Positions 8,525 through 46,685 of a stretch of 64,000 nt of DNA are shown one piece after another. This DNA comes from Thiothrix subterranea (GTDB lineage Bacteria > Pseudomonadota > Gammaproteobacteria > Thiotrichales > Thiotrichaceae), in assembly GCF_030930995.1 (NCBI RefSeq), contig NZ_CP133217.1, positions 1,364,001 through 1,428,000 of the forward strand, read 5' to 3'. The translations under genes and the position numbers were made by a program. The notes under the pieces are model-generated. The model was not told the origin of the DNA. It worked only from the letters and a program-made list of their open reading frames with translations, and made no database searches. The stretch's first letter is position 1. Every line of letters begins with the position of its first letter.

Positions 8525-10123
8525 TCAGATTTGCCGCACCTGAATATTCAGTATCTGGATGCGGTAGGCAATTTGCCGTGGTGTCATATTCAGCAACCGT
8601 GCGGCTTTGGCTTGCACCCAACCCGCTTCTTCCAGTGCGGCAATCACGCGCTCGCGTTCATCCAGATCCGGGTCATTCAAATCCGCCTTCGGTTTGCCGC
8701 TACCTGCCGCCGTAGAGACGCAAAATTTTGCGTCTCTACCACCACCACAGCCATCATCAGCCGGAAATTGGCTATCCAGCCCCGTCAAACGGATCACTTG
8801 CTGGTCGATATGCCCATCGGCGCTGAGAATCGCGGCACGTTCCATGCAGTTTTCCAACTCGCGCACATTGCCCGGCCAGCCGTGGTGCATCAGCGCACGA
8901 ATCGCACTGTCGCCAATATCCAGCGGTCGCCCTTGCTTGTTACTGATTTTATTGACCAGAAAGCGGGCAAGGTCGGGGATGTCTTCCAGCCGTTCACGCA
9001 ACGGCGGCATAATGATCGGCATCACGTTGAGGCGGTAATACAAGTCTTCGCGGAATTCGCCTGCTCGCACTTCCTGTTCCAGATTGCGGTTGGTGGCGGC
9101 GATGACGCGCACATCGACCTTGAGAGTGCGCGTACCGCCGACGCGCTCGAACTCGCCTTCCTGCAAGACCCGTAGCAATTTGGCTTGGAACGCGGGGGTG
9201 ATTTCACCGATTTCATCCAGAAACAGCGTGCCGCCGTCGGCTTGCTCGAAACGTCCTTTGCGTTGGCTGATTGCGCCGGTAAATGCGCCTTTTTCATGCC
9301 CGAACAGTTCGGATTCGAGCAAATTGTCCGGCAATGCGGCGCAGTTGAGTTTGATGAAAGCATTGTTGGCGCGGGGCGAATGGTAGTGAATGGCGTTGGC
9401 AATCAGCTCTTTACCCGTACCGGATTCGCCGCGAATGAGCACGGTAGTGTTCCATTTGGCGACTTGCCGCGCTTGGTCGAACACGACTTGCATGACGCGG
9501 GTGCGTCCGATCAGATTGGCGAAACCGGATTCGCCTTTGACCTTGCGGCGCAAGGAGTCGCGTTCTTTTTGCAGTTCCTGCTTGTCGCTGGCGACTTCGT
9601 TGGCAAGGACGACGTTTTGCCCGATCAGGTTGCCGATCATTTCGAGAAAGCGGCGGCGTTCGCCCAGCAAATGCAGTTCGGCGGGCGGTTGCGCGGCTAA
9701 TACGCCGACGATTTCATCACCACGCGCGCGGATGGGGACGGCAATCAGCGGCAACACCGGGTTGTATACGCCGAGTTTGTCGAGAAAACGCGGTTCATCG
9801 GCTAACTTGCGGATAATGAGCGGCTTATCCATTTCAATCGCCAGCCCCATAATGCCTTCGCCTGCTCGGTAGCGCACATTTTCCACGGTAAGTTTGTCGG
9901 CACGGTGCAATTCCAGCAGCAGCAAATCGCCGCTATCGCCATCCAGCAGGCTGACCATGCCGTGTTCGAGCTGGCCTTCTTCGTGCAATACGCGCAACAC
10001 TTCGCGCAAGGTTTCCTTGAGGTTGAGGGAGCGGCTTAACACCTTGCTGACGGCGTAAATACAGGCAAGTTCGTCTTCCAGCAAGTTCAGGGTTTGTTGC
10101 AATTGCGCGTTGTCGTGGCTCAT
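8525..10123 (-). CDS. nifA: Nif-specific transcriptional activator NifA
   Basis: Sigma-54 enhancer-binding protein, ~532 aa from ATG 10123. It overlaps the nifL stop by 4 bp, with a GGGGGGA RBS. Domains: N-terminal GAF (about 20-175); AAA+ domain with Walker A GESGTGKE (232-239), sigma-54-contacting GAFTGA (279-284) and Walker [13 protein letters not shown]-terminal Fis-type HTH ([17 protein letters not shown]). The AAA+/HTH linker contains a palindromic repeat translated as [10 protein letters not shown] (residues ~462-471). The paired C-x4-C motif of oxygen-sensitive NifA is absent; with NifL beside it, redox control should act through NifL. It should activate all eight sigma-54 promoters in this window, including its own. 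Confidence 0.96.
8712..8739. repeat. Family A palindrome inside nifA
   Basis: 28-bp perfect palindrome, ends GTAGAGACG/CGTCTCTAC, core CAAAATTTTG. It is read in the nifA frame as RDAKFCVST, between the AAA+ domain and the HTH. The same sequence lies in clpX at 18111-18138. Confidence 0.95.
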
Positions 10124-11688
10124 TCCATCCCCCCGTTGCTGGTTTTTAGGGGTAGGTTGACACGGATGCGGCAACCGTTGGGGTAATCGGGGTCAATGCT
10201 GATACTGCCGCTGTGGTTGTTGACGATTTCTTGCGCCATGCACAAGCCCATGCCGACATTGCCGTTGCCGCGTTTCCAGCCGCTGTGGAAGGGTTCAAAC
10301 ACTTTCAGGCGTAGCGCGGGGGGAATGCCAATGCCGTTGTCGGTGATTTCTACGCTAATGCTGTCGTCGTGCAAACGGGTGTGAATGCGCAATTCGCGGT
10401 AGACGCGCCCGGCTTCGTGCAGTGCGAGCAGGGCATTGTCGAGCAGGTAATTGAACATACGCCGCAAGGAGGCTTCGTTGCCCATGATGGCGGGTAGCAC
10501 GGGTTCGGGTCGCCAATCGACGACTACGCCTTCTGAGAGCATCCGGTCAGTCGCAATAATCAGCAAGTCTTTGAGCACTTGATTGATGTTGACCAAAGAA
10601 TACGTGCCGTGTTCGGCTCTGGGGATTGCCATGCGCATGGCGTTGATGGCGCGGTAGGACGATTCCAGCACTTGTTGCAACACCGGGTACAAGGCTTCGG
10701 TGGAAGAGGGCGGCATGACCAGCGCGGCTTGGATCACGTTGAGCGGAGTTTCCAGTTGGAAAATCGCGCCTGCCAAAGTTTCGCGGATGCTGCTGGTGAG
10801 TTCCTGTTCCGCCATTTGTACTTTGAGGTGTTGGATGCGGGCGCGTTCCAGCTCGGCTTTGCGGGTAGTGATGTCGGTGGCAACCAACAGCAGGTAATGC
10901 CCGCCGCTGTTGGTTAAGGCGAAATAGTTTTTGGCGGCATCGTCGAGTTCTTCGACGTGGATGCCGGAGAGGGTGAACCAGCATTCGTTGCCATTGGGCG
11001 CGTCGAAACGGACTTGCACGTCGTGAAAATTGTCGAAGGTTTCACCGTCAAGCGAGGGCAGGCGATCTTTGAGCGCGTCGAGGAATAGGTGGATGGGTTC
11101 GATGCTGCCGAATTCGACTTTGAGGCGTTTGTAGGCTTTGTTATCCATCAGGATATTGCGGTTGCTGTCGAGCAATACCACGATGGCGGGGGCGAGGTCG
11201 AAAATGGTGTCGGAGAGGATTTTTTGGTGTTTGAGTTGCTGTTCCAGATTGTGAATGACCGAAATATCGCGGTGCATTCCGAGGAAGTTGGTGATATTGC
11301 GCTGGGCATCCAGCACGGGCGCAATGGTGACTTCGGCGAGGTAGCGTTCGCCCGCTTTGTTGCGGTTGATCAGCGTGCCGCGCCATTCTTTGCCGCTTTG
11401 GATGGTGCGCCACAGGGTGCGGTAAAGTTCCAGCGGGGTGGTTTTGCAGGACAGTACCGATTCGTTTTGCCCGCAAATCTCGTCGCGGGAATAGCCGGTT
11501 AATTCCTCAAACGCGCTGTTGACGTAGAGGATATTGGCGCGGGTGTCGGTAATGGAAATCGCAACGGGGGCTTGCTCCACGGTTTCGAGGATGGCTTGCA
11601 GCGATAAGCCGGGGGTCACATGCTCGAATCCGGCAATGCGCGAGAGGTCGGCGTAGTGTTCGGCGAATGAGGTGCTTGGCTTGTGCAT
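10120..11688 (-). CDS. nifL: NifA anti-activator and redox sensor NifL
   Basis: About 522 aa from ATG 11688. The first PAS domain (about 25-140; VNSAFEELTGYSRDEI, FLGMHRDIS) matches the FAD-binding PAS of NifL. A second PAS-like region follows, then a histidine-kinase-like part ending in a GHKL ATPase domain (NYLLDNALLALHEAG, DNGIGIPP, GMGLCMAQEIV). The H-box position reads AIFQLETPLNVIQAA with no histidine, fitting control by protein contact rather than phosphotransfer. NifL inhibits NifA under oxygen or fixed nitrogen. It precedes nifA in one operon behind a sigma-54 promoter at 11721-11736. Confidence 0.94.
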   Translation of the reverse strand: MHKPSTSFAEHYADLSRIAGFEHVTPGLSLQAILETVEQAPVAISITDTRANILYVNSAFEELTGYSRDEICGQNESVLSCKTTPLELYRTLWRTIQSGKEWRGTLINRNKAGERYLAEVTIAPVLDAQRNITNFLGMHRDISVIHNLEQQLKHQKILSDTIFDLAPAIVVLLDSNRNILMDNKAYKRLKVEFGSIEPIHLFLDALKDRLPSLDGETFDNFHDVQVRFDAPNGNECWFTLSGIHVEELDDAAKNYFALTNSGGHYLLLVATDITTRKAELERARIQHLKVQMAEQELTSSIRETLAGAIFQLETPLNVIQAALVMPPSSTEALYPVLQQVLESSYRAINAMRMAIPRAEHGTYSLVNINQVLKDLLIIATDRMLSEGVVVDWRPEPVLPAIMGNEASLRRMFNYLLDNALLALHEAGRVYRELRIHTRLHDDSISVEITDNGIGIPPALRLKVFEPFHSGWKRGNGNVGMGLCMAQEIVNNHSGSISIDPDYPNGCRIRVNLPLKTSNGGME

Positions 11689-11720
11689 AACGGTTTCCAC
11701 GGTTGCTGTGTTTATTGCGC

Positions 11721-11736
11721 TGCAATAGGCGTGCCA
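11721..11736 (-). promoter_or_regulatory. Sigma-54 promoter of nifLA
   Basis: On the minus strand: TGGCAC-GCCTA-TTGCA, a full -24/-12 element, 33 bp before the nifL ATG. The NifA site at 11848-11863 lies 111 bp upstream, so nifLA can autoregulate. NtrC control is also possible, but no clear NtrC site was seen. Confidence 0.88.
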
Positions 11737-11766
11737 GTGGATGGGAATAGGGGATAGAGAGAAGAT

Positions 11767-11833
11767 GGGCGACCAGCCGGTCGCCCCTACAGGCATTTCC
11801 ACGTAGGGGCGACCGGCTGGTCGTCCTCTTCAA
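11767..11833. repeat. Pair of family B palindromes in the nifL-rnfA gap
   Basis: Two GGGCGACC-type palindromes in inverse orientation. Their CCCCTAC/GTAGGGG ends face each other across 12 bases, and their CTCTTC-type ends point outward. They lie between the nifL promoter and the shared NifA site. The rest of the 301-bp intergenic region (11689-11989) holds only the two promoters and that site. Confidence 0.9.
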
Positions 11834-11847
11834 TCCCTCAATCGATA

Positions 11848-11863
11848 TGTAGCAAACCCGACA
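11848..11863 (+). promoter_or_regulatory. NifA upstream activator site shared by nifL and rnfA
   Basis: TGT-AGCAAACCCG-ACA, matching TGT-N10-ACA. It is 74 bp from the rnfA -24 and 111 bp from the nifL -24. The CCCGACA half points towards rnfA, as at the other sites. Confidence 0.85.
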
Positions 11864-11937
11864 ATCCCCCCTCTTTGTCACAAACCCCACCCCGCAAAAT
11901 CCGCCGCAAACCCACGCCACGCAAGGCTTGCAGAGGC

Positions 11938-11953
11938 TGGCACGCTCCCTGCA
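11938..11953 (+). promoter_or_regulatory. Sigma-54 promoter of rnfA
   Basis: TGGCAC-GCTCC-CTGCA, 36 bp before the rnfA ATG. The -24 GG and -12 GC are invariant. It drives the rnf operon under NifA. Confidence 0.88.
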
Positions 11954-11989
11954 TTGCCTTGATCACAGATACACATCAGGGAATGCGCA

Positions 11990-12568
11990 ATGGAATATTT
12001 CATGATCTTGCTCGGTACAGTACTGGTGAACAACGTGGTGTTGGTCAAGTTCCTGGGGCTTTGCCCGTTCATGGGGGTTTCCAAGCAGATTGATTCGGCG
12101 ATTGGCATGGGCATGGCGACGACGTTTGTGCTGACGCTGGCGTCGGTGGCGGGCTGGATGCTAGAACATTGGGTGTTGCAGCCGTTTGATCTGGGATTCC
12201 TGCGGATTTTGTCGTTTATTTTGGTGATTGCGGCGACGGTGCAGTTTACCGAAATGGTGATTAAGAAGGTGTCGCCTGCGCTGTATCAGGTGTTGGGGAT
12301 TTTCCTGCCGCTGATTACCACCAATTGCGCGGTACTGGGCGTGGCTCTGCTGAATGTGCAGGAACAGCACAGTTTTCTGCAAACCTTGCTGTACGGCTTT
12401 GGGTCGGCGGTGGGGTTTACCTTGGTGCTGGTGATTTTTGCAGGTTTGCGGGAACGGTTGGCGTTGGCGCAAGTGCCAGCGGCGTTTGGTGGGTTGCCGA
12501 TTGCGTTCATTGTTGCCGGGTTGTTGTCGCTGGCCTTTATGGGTTTTGCGGGGCTGGCGAGCCAATAG
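11990..12568 (+). CDS. rnfA: Rnf complex subunit RnfA
   Basis: 192-aa integral membrane protein with six predicted hydrophobic segments, the RnfA/NqrE family length. Typical stretches are [18 protein letters not shown] near the N-terminus and [12 protein letters not shown] in the middle. The Rnf complex uses the ion gradient and NADH to reduce ferredoxin or flavodoxin for nitrogenase. RnfA and RnfE together hold a membrane Fe-S centre. It is the first gene of a tight seven-gene operon behind a sigma-54 promoter; rnfB follows after 16 bp. Confidence 0.95.
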
Positions 12569-12584
12569 GAAAGGGAGAAAAAGC

Positions 12585-13121
12585 ATGACTGCGATTTTGA
12601 TTCTGATGACCTTGGGGTTGTTGCTGGGCGGGCTGTTAGGGCTGGCAGGCCAGTATTTCAAGGTGGAAGGCAACCCGTTACAGGAAGAAATTGAATCCCT
12701 GCTGCCCGGTTCGCAGTGTGGGCAGTGCGGCTTTCCCGGTTGCAGCCCGGCGGCGGAAGCGATTGCGAATGGTGCAGCCCCCGTGACCGCTTGTCCGCCC
12801 GGTGGCAAGGCATTGGCGGAAACCTTGGCGGCGAAATTGGGGGTGAGTGTTGACCTTTCCGGTGTGGCAGACAAGGGGCCGATGATTGCGTATGTGCATG
12901 AAAATTTGTGCATCGGCTGCACCAAGTGCTTTAAGCGTTGCCCGACGGATGCAATTTTGGGCAGTTCCAAGCAGATTCATGCGGTGTTTGCGGATGCTTG
13001 CACCGGCTGCGAGAAGTGCTTTGAGGTTTGCCCGACGGAATGTATTGAAATGCGCCCGCTGACGCATACGGTGCAAACGTGGTATTGGCCGAGTCCGATC
13101 ATGACAGGAGTTGCAGCATGA
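12585..13121 (+). CDS. rnfB: Rnf complex ferredoxin subunit RnfB
   Basis: 178 aa from ATG 12585, with GGGAG upstream. One N-terminal membrane anchor is followed by a four-cysteine Fe-S motif (GSQCGQCGFPGCSPAAEA plus a later Cys) and two [4Fe-4S] ferredoxin motifs (CIGCTKCFKRCP, CTGCEKCFEVCP). It is the electron-exit subunit expected to hand electrons to soluble ferredoxin or flavodoxin. The frame is open further upstream inside rnfA, but the membrane anchor and RBS fix the start. It overlaps rnfC by ATGA. Confidence 0.95.
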   Translation: MTAILILMTLGLLLGGLLGLAGQYFKVEGNPLQEEIESLLPGSQCGQCGFPGCSPAAEAIANGAAPVTACPPGGKALAETLAAKLGVSVDLSGVADKGPMIAYVHENLCIGCTKCFKRCPTDAILGSSKQIHAVFADACTGCEKCFEVCPTECIEMRPLTHTVQTWYWPSPIMTGVAA

Positions 13122-14608
13122 AACTGTTCCGCATCCGTGGCGGCGTACACCCGCACGATTGCAAGACCCTGAGTGCGGACAAAGCCATCGAAGACCTGCC
13201 GATGCCGAGCCTGTTGCACATTCCCTTGCAGCAGCACATTGGCGCGGCGGCGAAACCGGCGGTCAAACGCGGCGATCACGTCCTCAAGGGTCAATTGCTC
13301 GCCAATAGCCAAGGGATGATTTCCGCGCCCATCCATGCCCCTACCTCCGGGCGCGTCGTCGGGGTCGGGCATTACCCCGCGCACCACGCCTCCGGCCTGT
13401 CGGTACACACCATCACCCTGCAACCCGATGGCAAGGATGAGTGGATCGAACTTTCCCCACCCGCTGACCCGTTCGCACTCGACCCTGCCGAAATCGCCAC
13501 CCGCGTCGCTGCTGCTGGTATCGTTGGCATGGGCGGCGCAACTTTCCCCTCCGCCGTCAAACTGAACCTGCGCAACCGTTACAAGCTGCACACGCTGGTG
13601 ATCAATGGCGCGGAATGCGAACCCTACCTGACCTGTGATGACCGCATCATGCGCGAATATTCCGCCAACGTGATCGACGGCATTCGCATCATGGCTTACG
13701 CGCTGGGGGTGGAAAATATCATCATCGGCATCGAAAACAACAAACCACAAGCACAAGCTGCCATGCGTGAAGCCGCTACCACTTTCCCCAACATCCAGGT
13801 GGTCGGTTTGCCAATGCGCTACCCGATGGGGTCGGAAAAACATCTGGTGCAAACCCTCACCGGGCTGGAAACGCCTGCGCGTGGCTTGACCGCTGACATC
13901 GGCATTGTGGTGCATAATCCGGCAACCGCGCTGGCAGTCCGTGATGCTTTGCGCGAAGGCAAACCGCTCGTTTCCCGCGTCGTCACTGTTTCTGGCGGGG
14001 CAGTGCGCCAGCCACGCAACCTGCGCGTATTGCTCGGCACGAAAGTGCAGGACGTGATCGACCATTGCGAAGGTTTCAACGTCGAACCTGCCCGTCTGAT
14101 CAGCGGCGGCCCGATGATGGGCAACCTGCTGCCCGATACCCGCGTACCGCTGGTGAAAGGTTGCAACGGTATTCTCGCCCTCACCGCCAAAGAGGTGTCT
14201 GAAAATCAGGAGTCGCCCTGCATCCGCTGCGCCAGTTGCGTGCAAGCCTGCCCGTGCGGGCTGTTGCCGCTGGAAATGGCGGCCAATGCCCGCGCTGGCA
14301 ACCTCGATGCCGTCACCAAACTGGGGCTGATGGATTGCATCGCCTGCGGTTCGTGTTCCTACGTTTGCCCCGCGCACATTCCGTTGGTGCAATATTTCAA
14401 CTACGCCAAGGGTGAACTCGCCAGCCGCCAACGCGCCAAGCACAAGCAGGACGAAACCAAACGCCTGATTGAACGGCGCAACGAACGTATGGCAGCGCAA
14501 GAACGTGCCAAGAAAGAAATGATGGAACGTCGCAAACGCGAAGCCGCCGCTAAGAAAGCTGCCGCAGCGGCTGCCGCTGCCAAAACCGCACAGGAGGCAA
14601 GCGCATGA
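13118..14608 (+). CDS. rnfC: Rnf complex subunit RnfC (NADH-binding)
   Basis: 496 aa. N-terminus MKLFRIRGGVHPHDCK; a glycine-rich NADH/FMN region (GMGGATFPSAVKL); two [4Fe-4S] motifs near the C-terminus (CIRCASCVQACP, CIACGSCSYVCP). It ends in a highly charged, then Ala/Lys-rich tail. It is peripheral on the cytoplasmic face and takes electrons from NADH. It overlaps both neighbours by ATGA. A 568-codon open frame on the opposite strand is a codon-bias shadow. Confidence 0.95.
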   Translation: MKLFRIRGGVHPHDCKTLSADKAIEDLPMPSLLHIPLQQHIGAAAKPAVKRGDHVLKGQLLANSQGMISAPIHAPTSGRVVGVGHYPAHHASGLSVHTITLQPDGKDEWIELSPPADPFALDPAEIATRVAAAGIVGMGGATFPSAVKLNLRNRYKLHTLVINGAECEPYLTCDDRIMREYSANVIDGIRIMAYALGVENIIIGIENNKPQAQAAMREAATTFPNIQVVGLPMRYPMGSEKHLVQTLTGLETPARGLTADIGIVVHNPATALAVRDALREGKPLVSRVVTVSGGAVRQPRNLRVLLGTKVQDVIDHCEGFNVEPARLISGGPMMGNLLPDTRVPLVKGCNGILALTAKEVSENQESPCIRCASCVQACPCGLLPLEMAANARAGNLDAVTKLGLMDCIACGSCSYVCPAHIPLVQYFNYAKGELASRQRAKHKQDETKRLIERRNERMAAQERAKKEMMERRKREAAAKKAAAAAAAAKTAQEASA

Positions 14609-15609
14609 GCTTATTGATTTCCAGCCCGCACACCCATTCCGGCAAAAGTGTCCACAGCACCATGTTGCTGGTGATGCTGGCACTTGCCCCCGCGACTGTT
14701 TTCGGCTTGTACCTGTTTGGTTTGCCTGCCATCAGCCTGTTTTTGATTACCATCCTCGGCTGCGCGCTGGCGGAGGCGATGGCGCTGAAAATCATGGGCA
14801 AGCCGGTGGGCAAATACCTCAGCGACGGTTCGGCGATCCTCACTGGCTGGTTGCTGGCGCTGAGTTTGCCACCGACTGCGCCTTGGTGGATTGGGCTGTT
14901 GGGTGCATTCCTCGCCATCATCATTGGCAAGCAAGTGTTTGGCGGCATTGGGCAAAACCTGTTCAACCCGGCAATGGTGGCGCGGGTGGCGTTGCTGATT
15001 TCCTTCCCGCTGGAAATGACCACGTGGGTGACGGTTGATGGCGTGAGTGGCGCAACGACTTTGGGGCATATCCGTACTGAAACCGGGCAAGGACATAGTT
15101 TGGCGAGCTTTACCGACAGTTTGCCGAGTGTCAGCGACATGGGGCTGGGGATGATCGGCGGCAGCATGGGCGAAACCTCGGCGGTCTTGTTGCTACTCGG
15201 CGGCTTGTTCCTGCTGTGGAAACGCATTATTACCTGGCACATTCCGGTGTCGCTGCTTGGCACATTGTTGCTGTTGGCGGGGGTCATGCACGCCATTAAT
15301 CCTGACGTTTACCCCGGTGTGGAGGTGCATTTGCTGGCGGGGGCAACCTTGCTGGGCGCATTTTTCATTGCTACCGATTTAGTTACATCCCCAGTGTCAG
15401 CGACTGGCCAACTGATTTTCGGCGCGGGCTGTGGGCTGCTGGTGTACGTGATTCGTACATGGGCGGGCTACCCCGAAGGCATGGCGTTTGCGGTCATGTT
15501 GATGAATGCGCTGACCCCACTGATTGACCACTATTTCCGCCCACGCATTTACGGGCGTGACCGCAAGGGCGAACCGCTCAACTATGCCAGCGGGGAGAAC
15601 AAACCATGA
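14605..15609 (+). CDS. rnfD: Rnf complex subunit RnfD
   Basis: 334-aa polytopic membrane protein of the NqrB/RnfD family. The covalent-flavin threonine lies in the VSGATTLG region (the SGAT pattern). Conserved stretches include DGSAILTGWLLALSLPP and GGIGQNLFNPAMVARV, then a C-terminal block ending FRPRIYGRDRKGEP. It carries electrons through the membrane and contributes to ion transport. It is translationally coupled to rnfC and rnfG by 4-bp overlaps. Confidence 0.94.
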   Translation: MSLLISSPHTHSGKSVHSTMLLVMLALAPATVFGLYLFGLPAISLFLITILGCALAEAMALKIMGKPVGKYLSDGSAILTGWLLALSLPPTAPWWIGLLGAFLAIIIGKQVFGGIGQNLFNPAMVARVALLISFPLEMTTWVTVDGVSGATTLGHIRTETGQGHSLASFTDSLPSVSDMGLGMIGGSMGETSAVLLLLGGLFLLWKRIITWHIPVSLLGTLLLLAGVMHAINPDVYPGVEVHLLAGATLLGAFFIATDLVTSPVSATGQLIFGAGCGLLVYVIRTWAGYPEGMAFAVMLMNALTPLIDHYFRPRIYGRDRKGEPLNYASGENKP

Positions 15610-16241
15610 CCACCGACACTAAAGATACTAAAACGCCGTTGCTGGAACGCATTCCCTATCAGGCAATTTTGCTGGGTGCGTGCGCCGCGATTGCCGCCGC
15701 GTTGCTGCTGGGCGTGGATAACGCCACCCGCGAACCGATTGCGCAGCGCAAGATGGAAGACTTGCAACAATCGCTGGCGCAAGTCGTGCCGGATGATTTG
15801 CACGATAACAATATGGTGGCAAAGCCGCTGCTGCTGACGGGGGAGGATGGCAAAGAGATCAAGGTTTATCAAGGCACAAAAGCGGGCAACGTCACCGCGC
15901 TGGTGTGGGAAACCGTCGGCTTCGGCTACGCGGGCGAAATCCGCACCATTATCGCACTTGACCCACAAGGCAACATCCTCGGCACGCGGGTGTTGTCGCA
16001 CAAGGAAACACCGGGGCTGGGCGACAAGATCGAAGCCGCCAAGGATGACTGGATCACCAAGTTCACCGGGCTTTCCTTTGGCAATCCGCCCGAAGACCAG
16101 TGGAAGGTGAAAAAGGACGGTGGGCAATTTGACCAGTTCAGTGGCGCAACCATTACCCCACGTGCGGTGGTGAAAAGCCTGCACGCAGCCTTGCAATTCT
16201 TTGCCGCACACAAAGCCGAGATGCTGGAGGTGAAACCATGA
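15606..16241 (+). CDS. rnfG: Rnf complex subunit RnfG
   Basis: 211 aa with one N-terminal membrane anchor (AILLGACAAIAAALLLGV) and an FMN-binding domain outside the membrane. The covalent-FMN threonine is in FSGATITPRAV. The stretch SHKETPGLGDKIE is also typical of the family. It overlaps rnfD and rnfE by 4 bp each. Confidence 0.94.
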   Translation: MTTDTKDTKTPLLERIPYQAILLGACAAIAAALLLGVDNATREPIAQRKMEDLQQSLAQVVPDDLHDNNMVAKPLLLTGEDGKEIKVYQGTKAGNVTALVWETVGFGYAGEIRTIIALDPQGNILGTRVLSHKETPGLGDKIEAAKDDWITKFTGLSFGNPPEDQWKVKKDGGQFDQFSGATITPRAVVKSLHAALQFFAAHKAEMLEVKP

Positions 16242-16939
16242 GCGATTACAGACGCATTGCCAAAGATGGGCTGTGGGACAACAACGTGGTGTTTGCGCAA
16301 GGGCTGGCACTGTGTCCGGTACTCGCCGTGACCAGTTCTGCCACCAACGGGCTGGGCATGGGGCTGGCAAGTACGGCGGTGTTGGTGATGTCGAATTTGC
16401 TGGTGTCCTTGATCCGCCAGTGGGTTAGCCCTGCGGTAAGGATTCCGGTTTATATTGTGCTGATTGCCACACTGGTGACGCTGGTGGATATGGCGTTGAA
16501 TGCGTGGGTGCATGAGCTGTACAAGGTGCTGGGGCTGTTTATCGCGTTGATCGTGGTCAACTGTGCGATTTTGGGGCGGGCAGAATCGTTTGCGTCGAAG
16601 AATTCGCCGATTCCGGCGGTGTTTGATGGGCTGATGATGGGGCTGGGTTTCACGCTGGCCTTGGTGATTCTAGGTGGAGTGCGTGAAGTGCTGGGTAGCG
16701 GTACGTTGTTTGCCAGTGCGTCGTTGTTGCTGGGCAAGGCATTTTCCTTTATGGAGCTGACGATTATTCCTGATTACAAGGGGTTTTTGTTGATGATTTT
16801 GCCGCCGGGTGGGTTTATGGCGTTGGGTTTCCTGTTGGCGGGGAAACGGGTTTGGGATGCGCGGATGATGCGCTTGTCGTTACAGCGGGGTAAGGGCGAC
16901 CGGCCGGTCGCCCCTACAGAAGTGGGGGGTGCGGTATGA
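16238..16939 (+). CDS. rnfE: Rnf complex subunit RnfE
   Basis: 233-aa polytopic membrane protein, homologous to RnfA (LIVVNCAILGRAESFASKN). The C-terminus after LAGKRVWDARMMRLSLQ is formed by a family B palindrome translated as GKGDRPVAPTE, then VGGAV and the stop. The repeat therefore extends the cytoplasmic tail in frame without breaking the gene. It overlaps rnfG and rnfH by 4 bp. Confidence 0.94.
   Translation: MSDYRRIAKDGLWDNNVVFAQGLALCPVLAVTSSATNGLGMGLASTAVLVMSNLLVSLIRQWVSPAVRIPVYIVLIATLVTLVDMALNAWVHELYKVLGLFIALIVVNCAILGRAESFASKNSPIPAVFDGLMMGLGFTLALVILGGVREVLGSGTLFASASLLLGKAFSFMELTIIPDYKGFLLMILPPGGFMALGFLLAGKRVWDARMMRLSLQRGKGDRPVAPTEVGGAV
16894..16917. repeat. Family B palindrome encoding the RnfE tail
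   Basis: GGGCGACCGG and CCGGTCGCCC arms followed by CTAC. It is read in the rnfE frame as GDRPVAPT (about residues 219-227 including flanks) and ends 22 bp before the stop. Confidence 0.93.
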
Positions 16940-17211
16940 ATGTGGGGATTGCTTACGCGGATAAGTTCAAGCAAACGTGGTTGAAGCTGGAAGTGCCGGA
17001 TGGCAGCACCATCAAGGAAGCGCTTGAGTTTTCGGGTTTGCTCAAGCAGTTCCCGGACATTGATCTGGAAAATCAGGCAGTGGGAATTTTTGGCAAGATC
17101 AGTAAGCTGGATACTAAGGTGGTGGATGGCGACCGGGTGGAGATTTACCGCCCGATTACGGCTGACCCGGAGACGGTAGAGCGGCGTGACCGCAATAATG
17201 ATGACGAATAG
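16936..17211 (+). CDS. rnfH: Rnf-associated protein RnfH
   Basis: 91-aa RnfH of the ubiquitin-like beta-grasp family (NVGIAYADKFKQTWLKLEVP, then DRVEIYRPITADPETVERR). It commonly closes nif-linked rnf operons; its biochemical role is unknown. It starts within the rnfE stop and ends with an acidic tail. Confidence 0.9.
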   Translation: MNVGIAYADKFKQTWLKLEVPDGSTIKEALEFSGLLKQFPDIDLENQAVGIFGKISKLDTKVVDGDRVEIYRPITADPETVERRDRNNDDE

Positions 17212-17224
17212 TGAGCGATTTACC

Positions 17225-17605
17225 ATGACCGATAATTTGTCAGACAAGATCAATGCCGCCGCGCCGCAAGCCGCCAATATTTGTGCGGAGTTGAACAGGC
17301 AAATTCTCAAGCTGGGTTTTCCGCCGGAACGCGCCGACGTGACGCTGGGTAGCCATGTGCAATACAGCCTGCAACGCGACACGTTTTCGGGGCTGGATTC
17401 GCTGCTGGGGGTGTGGATGCACCCCACCAGTGGCTACAAGCAGGGTTCGCTGCTGTTCCATGCAGATGGCACGTTCTTCGCCGAATACGACGTGTTGCAG
17501 CCGCACCCGACCAAGCGCAAGTGGTTTGTGGAAGCGGTGACGGTGTGGGGCAAGGGTGACGACATTAAAGGCGACCCGCGTTTGTTGCCTGCGCTGGGGG
17601 AGTAG
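17225..17605 (+). CDS. Conserved unknown gene after rnfH
   Basis: 126 aa from ATG 17225, 13 bp after rnfH; in-frame ATGs at 17186 and 17201 lie within rnfH and are less likely. Soluble, no signal peptide. Visible stretches: LNRQILKLGFPPERADVTLG and GVWMHPTSGYKQGSLLFHADGTFFAEYDVL. I do not recognise the family. Its place at the end of the rnf operon suggests co-expression under NifA and a role near Rnf or nitrogenase electron supply. Confidence 0.7.
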   Translation: MTDNLSDKINAAAPQAANICAELNRQILKLGFPPERADVTLGSHVQYSLQRDTFSGLDSLLGVWMHPTSGYKQGSLLFHADGTFFAEYDVLQPHPTKRKWFVEAVTVWGKGDDIKGDPRLLPALGE

Positions 17606-17665
17606 TATGGCTACGGGCGATTTCGCCCTGTAAACCATTGAGAAACGCCTTGCGTAATGCCGCGT

Positions 17666-18976
17666 TCAGGCTTGTAGAGACGCAAAATCTTGCGTCTCTA
17701 CGGTGGTGGGTGTTTCCGATTCGCGGTATTCCAGTACAATTTCTGCACCATCTTTCACCACGTCCTCTGTCACCACACACCGCACCACGTTTTCTTCCGA
17801 TGGCAAGGTAAACATCAGTTTGCGCAACAGCGTTTCCAACACCCCGCGTAAACCGCGTGCGCCCGTGCCATGCGCAATGGCCTTCTGCGCAATTGCCCGC
17901 AATGCTTCGTCGGTGAACTCCAGCTCGGCATTATCCAGCGCGAACAGTTGCTGGTATTGCTTAATCAGGGCGTTTTGCGGTTCGGTGAGGATGCGTACCA
18001 GCGCGTCTTCGTCGAGTTCGTGTAACGCGGTGATGACGGGGAAACGTCCGATGAATTCGGGGATCAGCCCGAAGTGGCGCAAGTCTTCCGGTTGCACCTC
18101 ACCCAACACCGTAGAGACGCAAAATTTTGCGTCTCTACCATCGGTCGGATTGCCGTGCGCTGCGTGGAAACCGATGCCTTTTGCGCCGGGTTTGAGGCGT
18201 TTTTCCAGCAGCTTTTCCAGACCGGAGAATGCGCCGCCGACGATGAACAGAATATTGCGCGTGTCGAGCATCACCGGGGCTTGGTCTTTGCGACCTTTGG
18301 CGGGGACTTTGACGGTGGTGCCTTCCACCAGTTTCAGCAGGGCTTGTTGTACGCCTTCGCCGCCGACATCGCGGGTTCCGTGCGAGTTTTCACCGCTGCG
18401 GGCGAGTTTGTCGATTTCGTCGATGTAAACGATGCCCCATTCCGCCAGTTCCTTGTTGCCGTCGGCACTGTCGAGCAGGCGGGCAATGATGCTTTCCACG
18501 TCTTCACCGACGTAACCCGCTTGGGTCAGGGTGGTGGCGTCGGCGATGACGAAAGGTACGCCCACGATCCGCGCCAAGGTGCTGGCCAGCAGGGTTTTGC
18601 CTGTGCCGGAAGGCCCCAGTAGCAGGATGTTGGATTTGTCGAGTTCCACCACCGATTTGTCGGTGCGGGTGCAGATGCGCGGCTTGTCGGTTTCCAGATT
18701 GAGGCGTTTGAAATGGTTGTAGACCGCGACGGCGAGGGTTTCTTTGGCGGTGTCTTGCCCGATCACGTAGCCGTCGAGGATCGCCTTGATTTGCAGCGGT
18801 TTGGGCGGAGTTTTGAGCGGTTCGCTCATGCTGCGCTTGCGGCTCCAGGTGCTGATGACTTGGTGGGCAAGGCGCACGCAGGCTTCGCAAATGTGCCCGT
18901 TCATTCCGGCAATCAGCGGGATGTGCGCGGTTTGCTCTTGTCCGCAGAAGGAACAGGCGGGTGTTTTATCGCTCAT
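17666..18976 (-). CDS. clpX: Nif-linked ClpX-type AAA+ unfoldase
   Basis: 436 aa from ATG 18976. N-terminal zinc finger (CSFCGQEQ...CEAC), Walker A GPSGTGKT, Walker B IVYIDEIDKLAR, and FGLIPEFIGRFPV of ClpX. A second clpX beside nifM is known in Azotobacter; the chromosomal clpX normally sits with clpP, which is absent here. It probably acts on nitrogenase or nif proteins with a ClpP encoded elsewhere. A family A palindrome is translated within a variable loop ([10 protein letters not shown], about 280-289). A second forms the C-terminus (VETQDFASL then QA) in the other open frame. It overlaps nifM by 4 bp. Confidence 0.92.
   Translation of the reverse strand: MSDKTPACSFCGQEQTAHIPLIAGMNGHICEACVRLAHQVISTWSRKRSMSEPLKTPPKPLQIKAILDGYVIGQDTAKETLAVAVYNHFKRLNLETDKPRICTRTDKSVVELDKSNILLLGPSGTGKTLLASTLARIVGVPFVIADATTLTQAGYVGEDVESIIARLLDSADGNKELAEWGIVYIDEIDKLARSGENSHGTRDVGGEGVQQALLKLVEGTTVKVPAKGRKDQAPVMLDTRNILFIVGGAFSGLEKLLEKRLKPGAKGIGFHAAHGNPTDGRDAKFCVSTVLGEVQPEDLRHFGLIPEFIGRFPVITALHELDEDALVRILTEPQNALIKQYQQLFALDNAELEFTDEALRAIAQKAIAHGTGARGLRGVLETLLRKLMFTLPSEENVVRCVVTEDVVKDGAEIVLEYRESETPTTVETQDFASLQA
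17674..17701. repeat. Family A palindrome forming the ClpX C-terminus
   Basis: Ends GTAGAGACG/CGTCTCTAC, with one mismatch in the core. It is read as VETQDFASL, followed by two codons and the stop, so it supplies the end of the clpX coding sequence. Confidence 0.93.
18111..18138. repeat. Family A palindrome inside clpX
   Basis: Perfect 28-bp palindrome, identical to the nifA copy, read as RDAKFCVST. It lies in the variable loop before the GEVQPEDLRHFGLIPEF segment. Confidence 0.95.
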
Positions 18977-39966: not shown

Positions 39967-39994
39967 GTAGAGACGCAAGATTTTGCGTCTCTAC
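39967..39994. repeat. Family A palindrome after fdxB
   Basis: Ends GTAGAGACG/CGTCTCTAC, one core mismatch (CAAGATTTTG). The only family A copy here outside a coding sequence. No T-run follows it. Confidence 0.9.
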
Positions 39995-44788: not shown

Positions 44789-46685
44789 GTGCAAGTCCCC
44801 TGTAGGAGAACCCACCGTTCTGGCTTTCAGAGCGGCATAACTACTAGCCGACGGCAACTGCCACCCCGCGAGGGCTGGTGGGAAGGAAGCCGAAGCGCAA
44901 AACTGCGAGCCTACGGACAGAAACGTCATACAAGGCTGAGTCTCAGGGATGAGTGGGCACAAGGTCACGAAATCCAGTGGTTCGCGAGATACAGTAAATG
45001 ACGGGGTTGTGCAGTGACAGTTCATGTTCTTATTCGGGGAGATCTGCTTAACCAGCGGTCGTCGTGAACCCGTACAGGCGCGGGTATAGAAAAGGTCTGG
45101 GCGTTCTGGCATGTCATCCGCCAGCAGCGAGCGAACCGGATGACAAACGGCAGCGCGGCGGGGAGCAATCTTCACCGTGATTAAGCAGAAGTCAGCAGAC
45201 GGCATAGTAGCCCAACGCCCGGCGTAATGGCGGGGACACGGTGAAGGCCGGAACATCAGGGGAGGAGCAGCCCACCTGACCTTGGCGGCAGCGATGCCAA
45301 AGGCGGTCAACGTGGCAGCGAGCCTCCCACAACATCCATTGAGCAACCATGAACATGGAACAAACCTTACTGAATGACATTTTGTTGCCCACCAACCTGC
45401 ACCCGGCATGGAAACATGTGCGGCAGAACAAGGGCAGCGCAGGCATCGACGGCATCACGCTGGACGCCTACCCGGACTGGGCGAAAGCCCACTGGGCAAA
45501 CATCCGGCGCGGGTTGCTGGCGGGTTATTATTGCCCGCAGCCAGTCAGACGGGTAGAGATTCCCAAACCGAACGGCGGTGTCCGTTTGCTGGGTATTCCC
45601 ACCGTCAACGACCGGCTGATCCAGCAAGCCATCGTACAACGCCTGCAACCGTTGGTTGACCCCAGCTTCTCGGAACACAGCTACGGCTTCCGTCCGCACC
45701 GTTCAGCCCACCACGCCATCAGGGCGGTACAAGGCTTCATCCGGCGCGGCGACCGTTACGCCGTGGACATCGACCTGTCGAAATTCTTCGACAACGTAGA
45801 CCACGACCTGCTGATGCACCGGCTGGGCAAACGGGTCAACGACCCGCATGTTCTTACCCTGATCGGCAAATACCTGCGGGCAGGTGTCAGCCACCACGGC
45901 AACATCGAAGCCACCCACGGGGTGTCCCCCAAGGTGGTCCACTGTCGCCACTGTTGGCAAACATCCTGCTCGACGACCTTGACCGGTTTCTGGAACGTAA
46001 AGGCTACCGGTTCGCCCGTTACGCCGACGACTTCGTGATTGGCGCAAAAACCCTTGCAGAAGGGCAGCGCATCAAAACTGAAGTCGAAACCTTTCTGCAA
46101 ACCCTCAAGTTGCCGGTCAACGCCGACAAAAGCAGCGTCCTGCCGATGAACGAACTCTGCTTCCTCGGCTACCAGTTCCGGGGACTCCACCTTATCTGGA
46201 GTCCTGCGAGTCTGGCAGCCTTCAAGCACCGTATTCGCCAACTGACCAACCGCTCGTGGGGCGTCAGTTGGGAATACCGCTACCGGAAGCTGAAGGAATA
46301 CCTCACCGGCTGGATGAACTACTTTGCTCTGGTCATCTTTGACCCGGTGGAACGGCTGGACTACTGGATACGGCGCAGAATCCGCATGTGCTACCTCAAG
46401 CAATGGCGGAAACCGCGCACCCGCATCCGCAACCTGATCAAGCTGGGCGTCCCGGAACGGTTGGCGGTCAGCATCGGGTTGAGTTCCAAAGGCTACTACC
46501 GGCTGGCAAAGACCAAGGCCATGCAAATGGGGCTGTCGAATCGCTGGCTGAAGGAACAAGGGTTAGTGTCGCTCAAGGATCAATGGGTCAAGTGCCGTTA
46601 TCCCAACGGCTGATGAACCGCCCTGTGCGGAGCCGCACGCAGGGTGGTGTGGGGGCTGGGGGTTAGAAACCTCCGGCTACCCGAT
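44789..46685 (+). mobile_element. Group II intron, probably IIC-like
   Basis: 5' end GTGCAAG; 3' end CTACCCGAT. A domain V hairpin at 46617-46648 has ACCGCCCTG/CAGGGTGGT arms, a CG bulge and TGCG-GAGC-CGCA at the tip; a domain VI-like hairpin follows. 44789-45348 is ribozyme RNA before the maturase. The element is 1,897 bp, normal for a group II intron without an endonuclease domain. Boundaries are set by motif and by the in-frame exon join; error about 1-2 bp. Small inverted repeats (GCCC-GACAT-GGGC, CATGA-AC-TCATG) lie just before the 5' end, fitting IIC target hairpins. Confidence 0.9.
45349..46613 (+). pseudogene. Group II intron reverse transcriptase/maturase, frameshifted
   Basis: N-terminal RT part from ATG 45349 (KNKGSAGIDGITLDAY-like QNKGSAGIDGITLDAYPDW, SYGFRPHRSAHHAI, DIDLSKFFDNVDHD). 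At about 45922-45930 the frame breaks: GVSPKVVHC instead of the expected GVPQGGP. The other frame carries PLLANILLDDLDRF, YADD (about 46020-46031), and the GIIM domain to 46613. No endonuclease domain. One or two extra bases in a C-run (GTGTCCCCC) would cause this; a sequencing error in the run is also possible. Confidence 0.85.

Follow-up and report, generated by a model that had tools for sequence, protein, structure and literature searches.

We found that a palindrome of 28 bp (GTAGAGACGCAAAATTTTGCGTCTCTAC, hereafter palindrome A), which is translated in frame in NifA, NifB and ClpX of a Thiothrix genome, is very probably a non-autonomous mobile element, namely a "double-foot" GTAG REP of subclass 2.4, whose in-frame copies are tolerated in linkers, loops and protein ends. 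This reading is supported by the copy number of palindrome A, its exact boundaries, repeat-free alleles in relatives, a bias towards positions outside protein domains and in-frame presence in RAYT-like transposases of other phyla. The window we analyzed is a stretch of 64,000 nucleotides (G000:C2:1364001-1428000, G000 being the source genome), and the comparison covered 16 Thiothrix genomes including G000.

Four copies of palindrome A lie in the window (Table 1). A preliminary description of this DNA had proposed that three of them are translated in NifA and ClpX, and our reading bore out their positions and translations, with RDAKFCVST starting at residue 462 of NifA (counted from Ser-2) and residue 281 of ClpX, and VETQDFASL at residue 426 of the 436 residues of ClpX. 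Read from either strand, palindrome A encodes RDA[KR][FS]CVST or VETQ[ND][FL]ASL, and the third frame is closed by TAG because GTAG supplies the stop. As proposed, both open frames are used, and ClpX alone uses both: RDAKFCVST in its middle and VETQDFASL at its end. The copy at the ClpX end is an imperfect palindrome, owing to its changed centre base, and is not identical on both strands. The NifA linker, the ClpX loop and the ClpX end were confirmed as tolerant places in a free-living diazotroph of the genus Thiothrix, and the ClpX loop could be narrowed down to the one directly after the IGF motif, which we take to be the ClpP-docking loop. Additional copies of another palindrome, family G, start at 11763, 46799, 49248 and 49772.

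Table 1. Positions in the window of the palindromes and of the genes that carry them.
Feature	Position	Strand	Remarks
palindrome A, RDAKFCVST, NifA linker (AAA+ lid / HTH)	8712..8739		flanking Pfam stretches 393-461 and 506-540
nifA, host of one palindrome A copy	8525..10123	-	ORF and Pfam; 11 genes read, 4 with palindrome
palindrome A, one centre base changed, VETQDFASL, ClpX C-terminus	17674..17701		
palindrome A, RDAKFCVST, ClpX loop after IGF motif	18111..18138		
clpX of the nif region	17666..18976	-	second clpX elsewhere in the genome
palindrome A, one centre base changed, extragenic	39967..39994		
family G palindrome, KGDRPVAPT, C-terminal part of RnfE	16890..16917		

With up to three mismatches allowed, G000 carries 42 copies of palindrome A, while the reversed pattern used as a control gave 0. 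The palindrome is present in 11 of the 16 Thiothrix genomes and gave zero copies in the other five. The dispersed multicopy state is seen in G013, G000 and G015 (43, 42 and 36 copies); G002, G009, G014 and G001 have 17, 13, 12 and 10, and G004, G005, G006 and G011 have 3 to 5 each. The ends are sharply defined: 38 of the 42 copies run from GTAG to CTAC, three end in CTGC and one starts with GTGG. Copies are single units, with no pair among the 42 within 400 bp, and the similarity of flanks drops at the palindrome edge (84 flanks from G000 and 258 from genome-scan loci). A longer conserved element around palindrome A was rejected, the flanks being unconserved save for a weak GGTGG bias in Thiothrix. 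Nine of the 42 copies in G000 were judged intragenic by reading; by a scripted rule, 6 of 42 fall strictly inside ORFs of at least 200 aa as compared to 60% of random points at the same loci. Palindrome A is strongly kept out of genes.

Where palindrome A does lie in genes, its presence varies among relatives. It occurs in four of the 11 nifA genes read (G000, G013, G015 and, with one changed base, G011) and is absent from seven, two partial loci being left out. nifB, which sits outside the window, was read in 10 of 11 cases and carries the palindrome in G000 and G013 and not in the eight others; the filled gene is 27 nt longer than six aligned repeat-free alleles. The ClpX loop is filled in G000 and G015 (last base changed in G015) and empty in nine genomes read, G010 being left out. 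At the ClpX end, counted with two genomes left out, G000 has the palindrome and G013 a version with an internal deletion, the copies of G002 and G014 are decayed, and six genomes have none. As relatives carry repeat-free alleles, the palindrome A copies are insertions. It had been considered that orthologues might show the same residues on DNA that is not palindromic; what we found instead were repeat-free alleles that lack the residues, and the nearest approach was TQNLASL encoded by the decayed palindrome at the ClpX end of G002 and G014. G009 has another insertion in ClpX, between the zinc finger and the AAA+ domain. The nif genes of this genome look degraded, with a partial nifA containing an in-frame TAG and a ClpX that is cut short, and it gave no nifB match at the cut-off.

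An insertion of 28 bp alone would shift the frame; surviving copies must therefore have lost or replaced host bases. Compared to the G007/G011 type, the filled ClpX loop is 3 nt and the G009 linker 6 nt longer. The PabB segment from LAVR to GD has, by hand count, 77 aa with palindrome A, 77 aa in G001, G015 and G003, where no repeat was recognised, and 79-81 aa in three species that carry a different palindrome, family C. Several sites are thus replacements and not clean 28-bp insertions.

Besides NifA, NifB and the two sites in ClpX, in-gene copies in G000 were found in NuoG, PabB, PilQ, a proline-rich lipoprotein and the C-terminus of a NUDIX protein, probably isopentenyl-diphosphate isomerase (Idi); host proteins were named from sequence and Pfam. 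We compared the placement of 27 intragenic copies with Pfam domains (coordinates entered by hand), namely eight of the nine intragenic copies of palindrome A, the lipoprotein having no Pfam match, and 19 copies of families B and C. The latter came from 20 proteins picked from 38, with copies near ORF starts and doubtful ORFs left out and one protein without a match. Twenty-one of the 27 lie outside domains, where 8.9 were expected. In DNA polymerase I, for example, the copy separates the 5' nuclease domain from the 3'-5' exonuclease domain, and further copies outside domains lie in RecG, DnaX, Mfd, the lipoyl linker of pyruvate dehydrogenase E2 and an ABC exporter. The six copies inside domains include those in HypF, a heptosyltransferase and the ClpX loop. 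At one locus of G008 (L333), family C occurs in two adjacent lipoyl-domain genes, in both cases in the linker following the lipoyl domain; one gene is of the pyruvate dehydrogenase E2 type, and the other encodes a protein that combines lipoyl and pyridine-nucleotide oxidoreductase parts.

Families B (GTAGGGGCGTATTGCATACGCCC) and C (CTCCCCTGATAAGGGGAGG) are present in 14 and in all 16 of the Thiothrix genomes, respectively, and often form inverted pairs. Together with palindrome A and two repeats recognised by eye (D and E), they occupy the same loops in different species. Among the 15 of 16 species in which the NuoG loop was read, it holds palindrome A in seven (with four changes in G013 and G014). 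Family B forms an inverted pair there in G005, G006 and G011, and G004 has a decayed B-like piece; G008 carries family C, G012 and G007 carry the inverted repeat D, and no repeat was seen in the NuoG loop of G010. The PabB linker, again read in 15 of 16 species, carries palindrome A in G000, G002, G009, G013 and G014. Family C fills it in G005, G006 and G008, with decayed C-like sequence in G007 and perhaps G004 and G010; G011 has repeat E, and no repeat was recognised in G001, G015 and G003. A third case, a TPR protein, came unforeseen out of a wider, gene-blind sample of 65 sites (the listed exact C sites of G008 and G006 except nuoG and pabB, plus 12 B sites of G006): at one position of the alignment, two paralogues of G008 have family C and two of G006 have B-derived sequence. 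In this sample, 38 of the 65 sites lie in ORFs of at least 150 aa among the matches listed, and the strict rule applied to the listed sites gave 17/35 for C in G008, 7/18 for C in G006 and 4/12 for B in G006, versus 69% of random points. Family C is only mildly kept out of genes.

Two of 19 in-gene hits of family C in G008 (including two known hits that were added rather than scripted) fall in the set of eight genes that bear palindrome A in G000, each at the loop used by palindrome A. If 3,500-4,200 genes, an assumed number, were equally likely targets, the probability of this overlap would be about 6e-4 to 9e-4, which overstates the case because G008 was chosen after seeing the two hits. What may be new is this pattern, in which different Thiothrix species have unrelated families at one and the same place in NuoG, in the PabB linker and in the TPR protein, together with the location of 21 of 27 copies outside domains. 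We can only tentatively propose, and hold it to be rather doubtful, that certain interdomain loops are recurrent exchange sites in which unrelated palindromes swap during speciation at near-constant loop length, beyond a simple tolerance of insertions. If true, short mobile DNA would keep supplying conserved enzymes across the genus with new linker sequence.

We weighed several other explanations for the in-frame copies. A chance inverted repeat was rejected on the grounds of 42 copies versus none in the control. An assembly error, the other danger pointed out beforehand, was rejected because filled alleles are common to separate genomes (the NifA copy to G000, G013, G015 and G011, the mid-ClpX copy to G000 and G015, the NifB copy to G000 and G013); chance and error together retain a negligible probability. 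Alternatively, the copies could have arrived within alleles acquired from other species by recombination, without insertion at the site itself. In the NuoG tree, unlike the concatenated tree, G001 and G015 fall with the G000 clade, whose palindrome they share; this suggests that these alleles were exchanged with the G000 clade, and palindrome A in NuoG may therefore represent one event. Bases adjoining the palindrome are also often unlike those of relatives. Recombination would explain the spread of some alleles but not the first entry of the element, and the repeat-free NifB read are 92-98% identical to the filled one of G000. We consider recombination an improbable source of the in-frame copies.

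The remaining alternatives invoke selection. At six intragenic sites of palindrome A, 7 of 168 palindrome columns vary versus 141 of 720 columns in the nearest flanks, a contrast that is an upper bound because neither the decayed ClpX end nor the PilQ copy, which G014 lacks, is in the set. Tested one by one, three of these sites differ from the near flanks at P below 0.05. Low variation would be expected if the palindrome were kept for a role in DNA or RNA (hairpin, binding site, mRNA stability) with coding being incidental, and two of the four changes in the NuoG palindrome of G013 and G014 form a matched stem pair. However, decayed copies persist at the ClpX end of G002, G013 and G014, presence among species is patchy, the conservation set is free of decayed copies, and concerted evolution or re-insertion would account for low variation as well. 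We regard such a role as unlikely. Selection for the peptides themselves, as tags common to NifA, NifB and ClpX through which ClpX would be tied to nif regulation, seems less probable still. Three nif-linked proteins do carry palindrome A, and five copies lie within 48 kb (Poisson P 1e-4, for a region picked after the fact), but the frames differ (RDAKFCVST in NifA and mid-ClpX, VETQNLASL in NifB, VETQDFASL at the ClpX end), the palindrome is missing from NifA in seven of 11 and from NifB in eight of 10 genes read, and the same kinds of peptide occur in NuoG, PilQ and PabB. Most likely, the peptides encoded by palindrome A have no function.

The mobile REP reading raised the question of a transposase. 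The 28-mer pattern with two free centre bases matched at least 116 stretches in a genome scan, one of them from Thiothrix, and the matches listed come from Bacteroidota, Chloroflexota, Patescibacteria, Planctomycetota, Spirochaetes, Cyanobacteria, Proteobacteria and others. In Methylomonas, Kuenenia and Tenebribacter (3 of the 116 listed), palindrome A lies in frame inside a Y1-type, RAYT-like transposase gene just after the HUH motif, and in Syntrophus it lies 327 bp from the HUH motif of a Y1-type transposase; among the 116 stretches listed, only these four loci contain the motif MPNH[VIFL]H. Of the listed genome-scan loci, 29 of 103 usable sites are in ORFs of at least 150 aa, one being Thiothrix pabB. 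The best-fitting class for palindrome A is that of the double-foot GTAG REPs served by TnpA-REP/RAYT subclass 2.4. In 11 aligned RAYTs, judged by eye, NH[IFV]H and WQ are present in 11/11 and YIxNNP in 7/11. The match to the subclass is partial, since just one of the three transposases carrying palindrome A (Kuenenia) has YIxNNP and NCBIfam REP_Tyr_transpos scores all three below its cut-off. Pfam Y1_Tnp misses two of the three and scores the third weakly. An impression gained from Y1_Tnp that palindrome-rich Thiothrix genomes have no RAYT at all was rejected, as a direct protein search gave homologues in 7 of the 16.

In these 16 genomes we found no transposase cognate to palindrome A, which is not inside any Thiothrix RAYT gene. 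Neither half of it (GTAGAGACG, CGTCTCTAC) occurs in any of nine Thiothrix RAYT loci of 3.2-3.5 kb, the nearest copy in wider stretches is about 3 kb off, and a tblastn search with two Thiothrix Y1 transposases gave no match among the 116 listed genome-scan loci. The cognate RAYT may have been lost or missed. Several Thiothrix RAYTs have other GTAG palindromes near or within them, which agrees with the REP reading. Family F accompanies one in G000, while one in G011 both contains H and is surrounded by it, as is the case with B for one in G005; G-like palindromes lie beside a RAYT 2.7 kb from nifB in G000 and also near nifB in G013, G015 and G011. At the RAYT locus of G003 the string GTAGGGGCG recurs; no palindrome was seen at the G004 locus, where the gene is broken. 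The RAYT-like gene near nifB in G000 (L397, G000:C2:1359736-1360230) precedes the window by about 4 kb. A RAYT near nifB and palindrome A in NifA occur in the same four species, and that RAYT goes with family G, not A. By eye, what look like in-frame pieces of the neighbouring palindrome follow the HUH motif of the transposase genes at L397, L395, L392, L391, L390 and L398, clearly so for L398 (family H) and L390 (family B).

We envisage that a putative HUH transposase would cleave the hairpin at its GTAG foot, in single-stranded DNA, and insert the element elsewhere. Being nearly self-complementary with two stop-free frames, a frame-keeping copy in a gene would add about ten residues, the frame presumably being restored when some host bases were lost or replaced. 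Selection would spare copies in linkers, surface loops and protein ends, so that NifA, NifB and ClpX could carry them with little effect, probably neutrally, and the Thiothrix copies may have outlived or borrowed their transposase. Several observations speak against the mobile REP reading: we found no RAYT next to palindrome A in the 16 Thiothrix genomes, the transposases that carry it elsewhere match the subclass in part, simple pasting does not predict replacement sites, and plain neutrality does not predict the low variation of the palindromes, although that set was chosen for recognisable copies.

Elements of this kind are known. In-frame REPs within the gene are described as a unique feature of TnpA-REP subclass 2.4, for which the motifs NH[IFV]H, WQ and YIxNNP are printed and which, by the citation given in that paper, is group 4 of the RAYTs in Bertels 2017 (Quentin 2018, PMC6006769). 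Its REPs are long hairpins with 5' GT[AG]G and 3' C[TC]AC ends. Palindrome A resembles the REP of this subclass in its 5' GTAG, 3' CTAC and long stem, in hosts scattered over phyla and, outside Thiothrix, in its in-frame position after the HUH motif of the transposase gene; it differs in that copies lie in host proteins, the motifs are partly matched and no cognate Thiothrix transposase was found. Intragenic GTAG REPs were likewise reported from several free-living species, with flexible linkers suggested as sites, replication and repair genes prominent among hosts, and different REPs at about one site in recB of two Xanthomonas species (Di Nocera 2013, PMC3733652). The GTAG tag and the in-frame copies in linkers and ends of known proteins are shared with palindrome A, and a free-living host, which had been pointed out as a contrast to Rickettsia, is therefore not new. 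That work describes different sites within a functional category, in contrast to the single loop with several unrelated families per genus seen here; we found no description of one loop used by at least three unrelated families within a genus in the open-licence literature searched, and, going by title, nothing related to GTAGAGACG or palindromic repeats of Thiothrix among the matches listed.

The suspected kinship with Rickettsia palindromic elements did not hold. Both are palindromic repeats in frame in several proteins, but intragenic RPE-4/6 are classed as CGTC REPs without a transposase partner, RPE-1 being longer (PMC3733652), whereas palindrome A has the tag GTAG, another sequence and another host. 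It works like such an element but is not one. Families B and C resemble REPINs in often forming inverted pairs, unlike the single units of palindrome A. What these data add is that, in free-living bacteria, selfish palindromes supply coding sequence to core proteins of nitrogen fixation, complex I, replication and repair, and that a single family can reach about twenty copies inside genes of one genome, that of G008. As repeat-free, filled and decayed natural alleles exist in one genus, the origin of new linker sequence becomes testable, as does the cost or benefit of RAYT-REP systems to their host.

Another mobile element was noted in the nif region of the window, a group II intron at 44862-46685 (three Rfam matches). 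Its reverse transcriptase is split over two frames (45349-46038 and 45954-46613), and the intron is therefore probably disabled.
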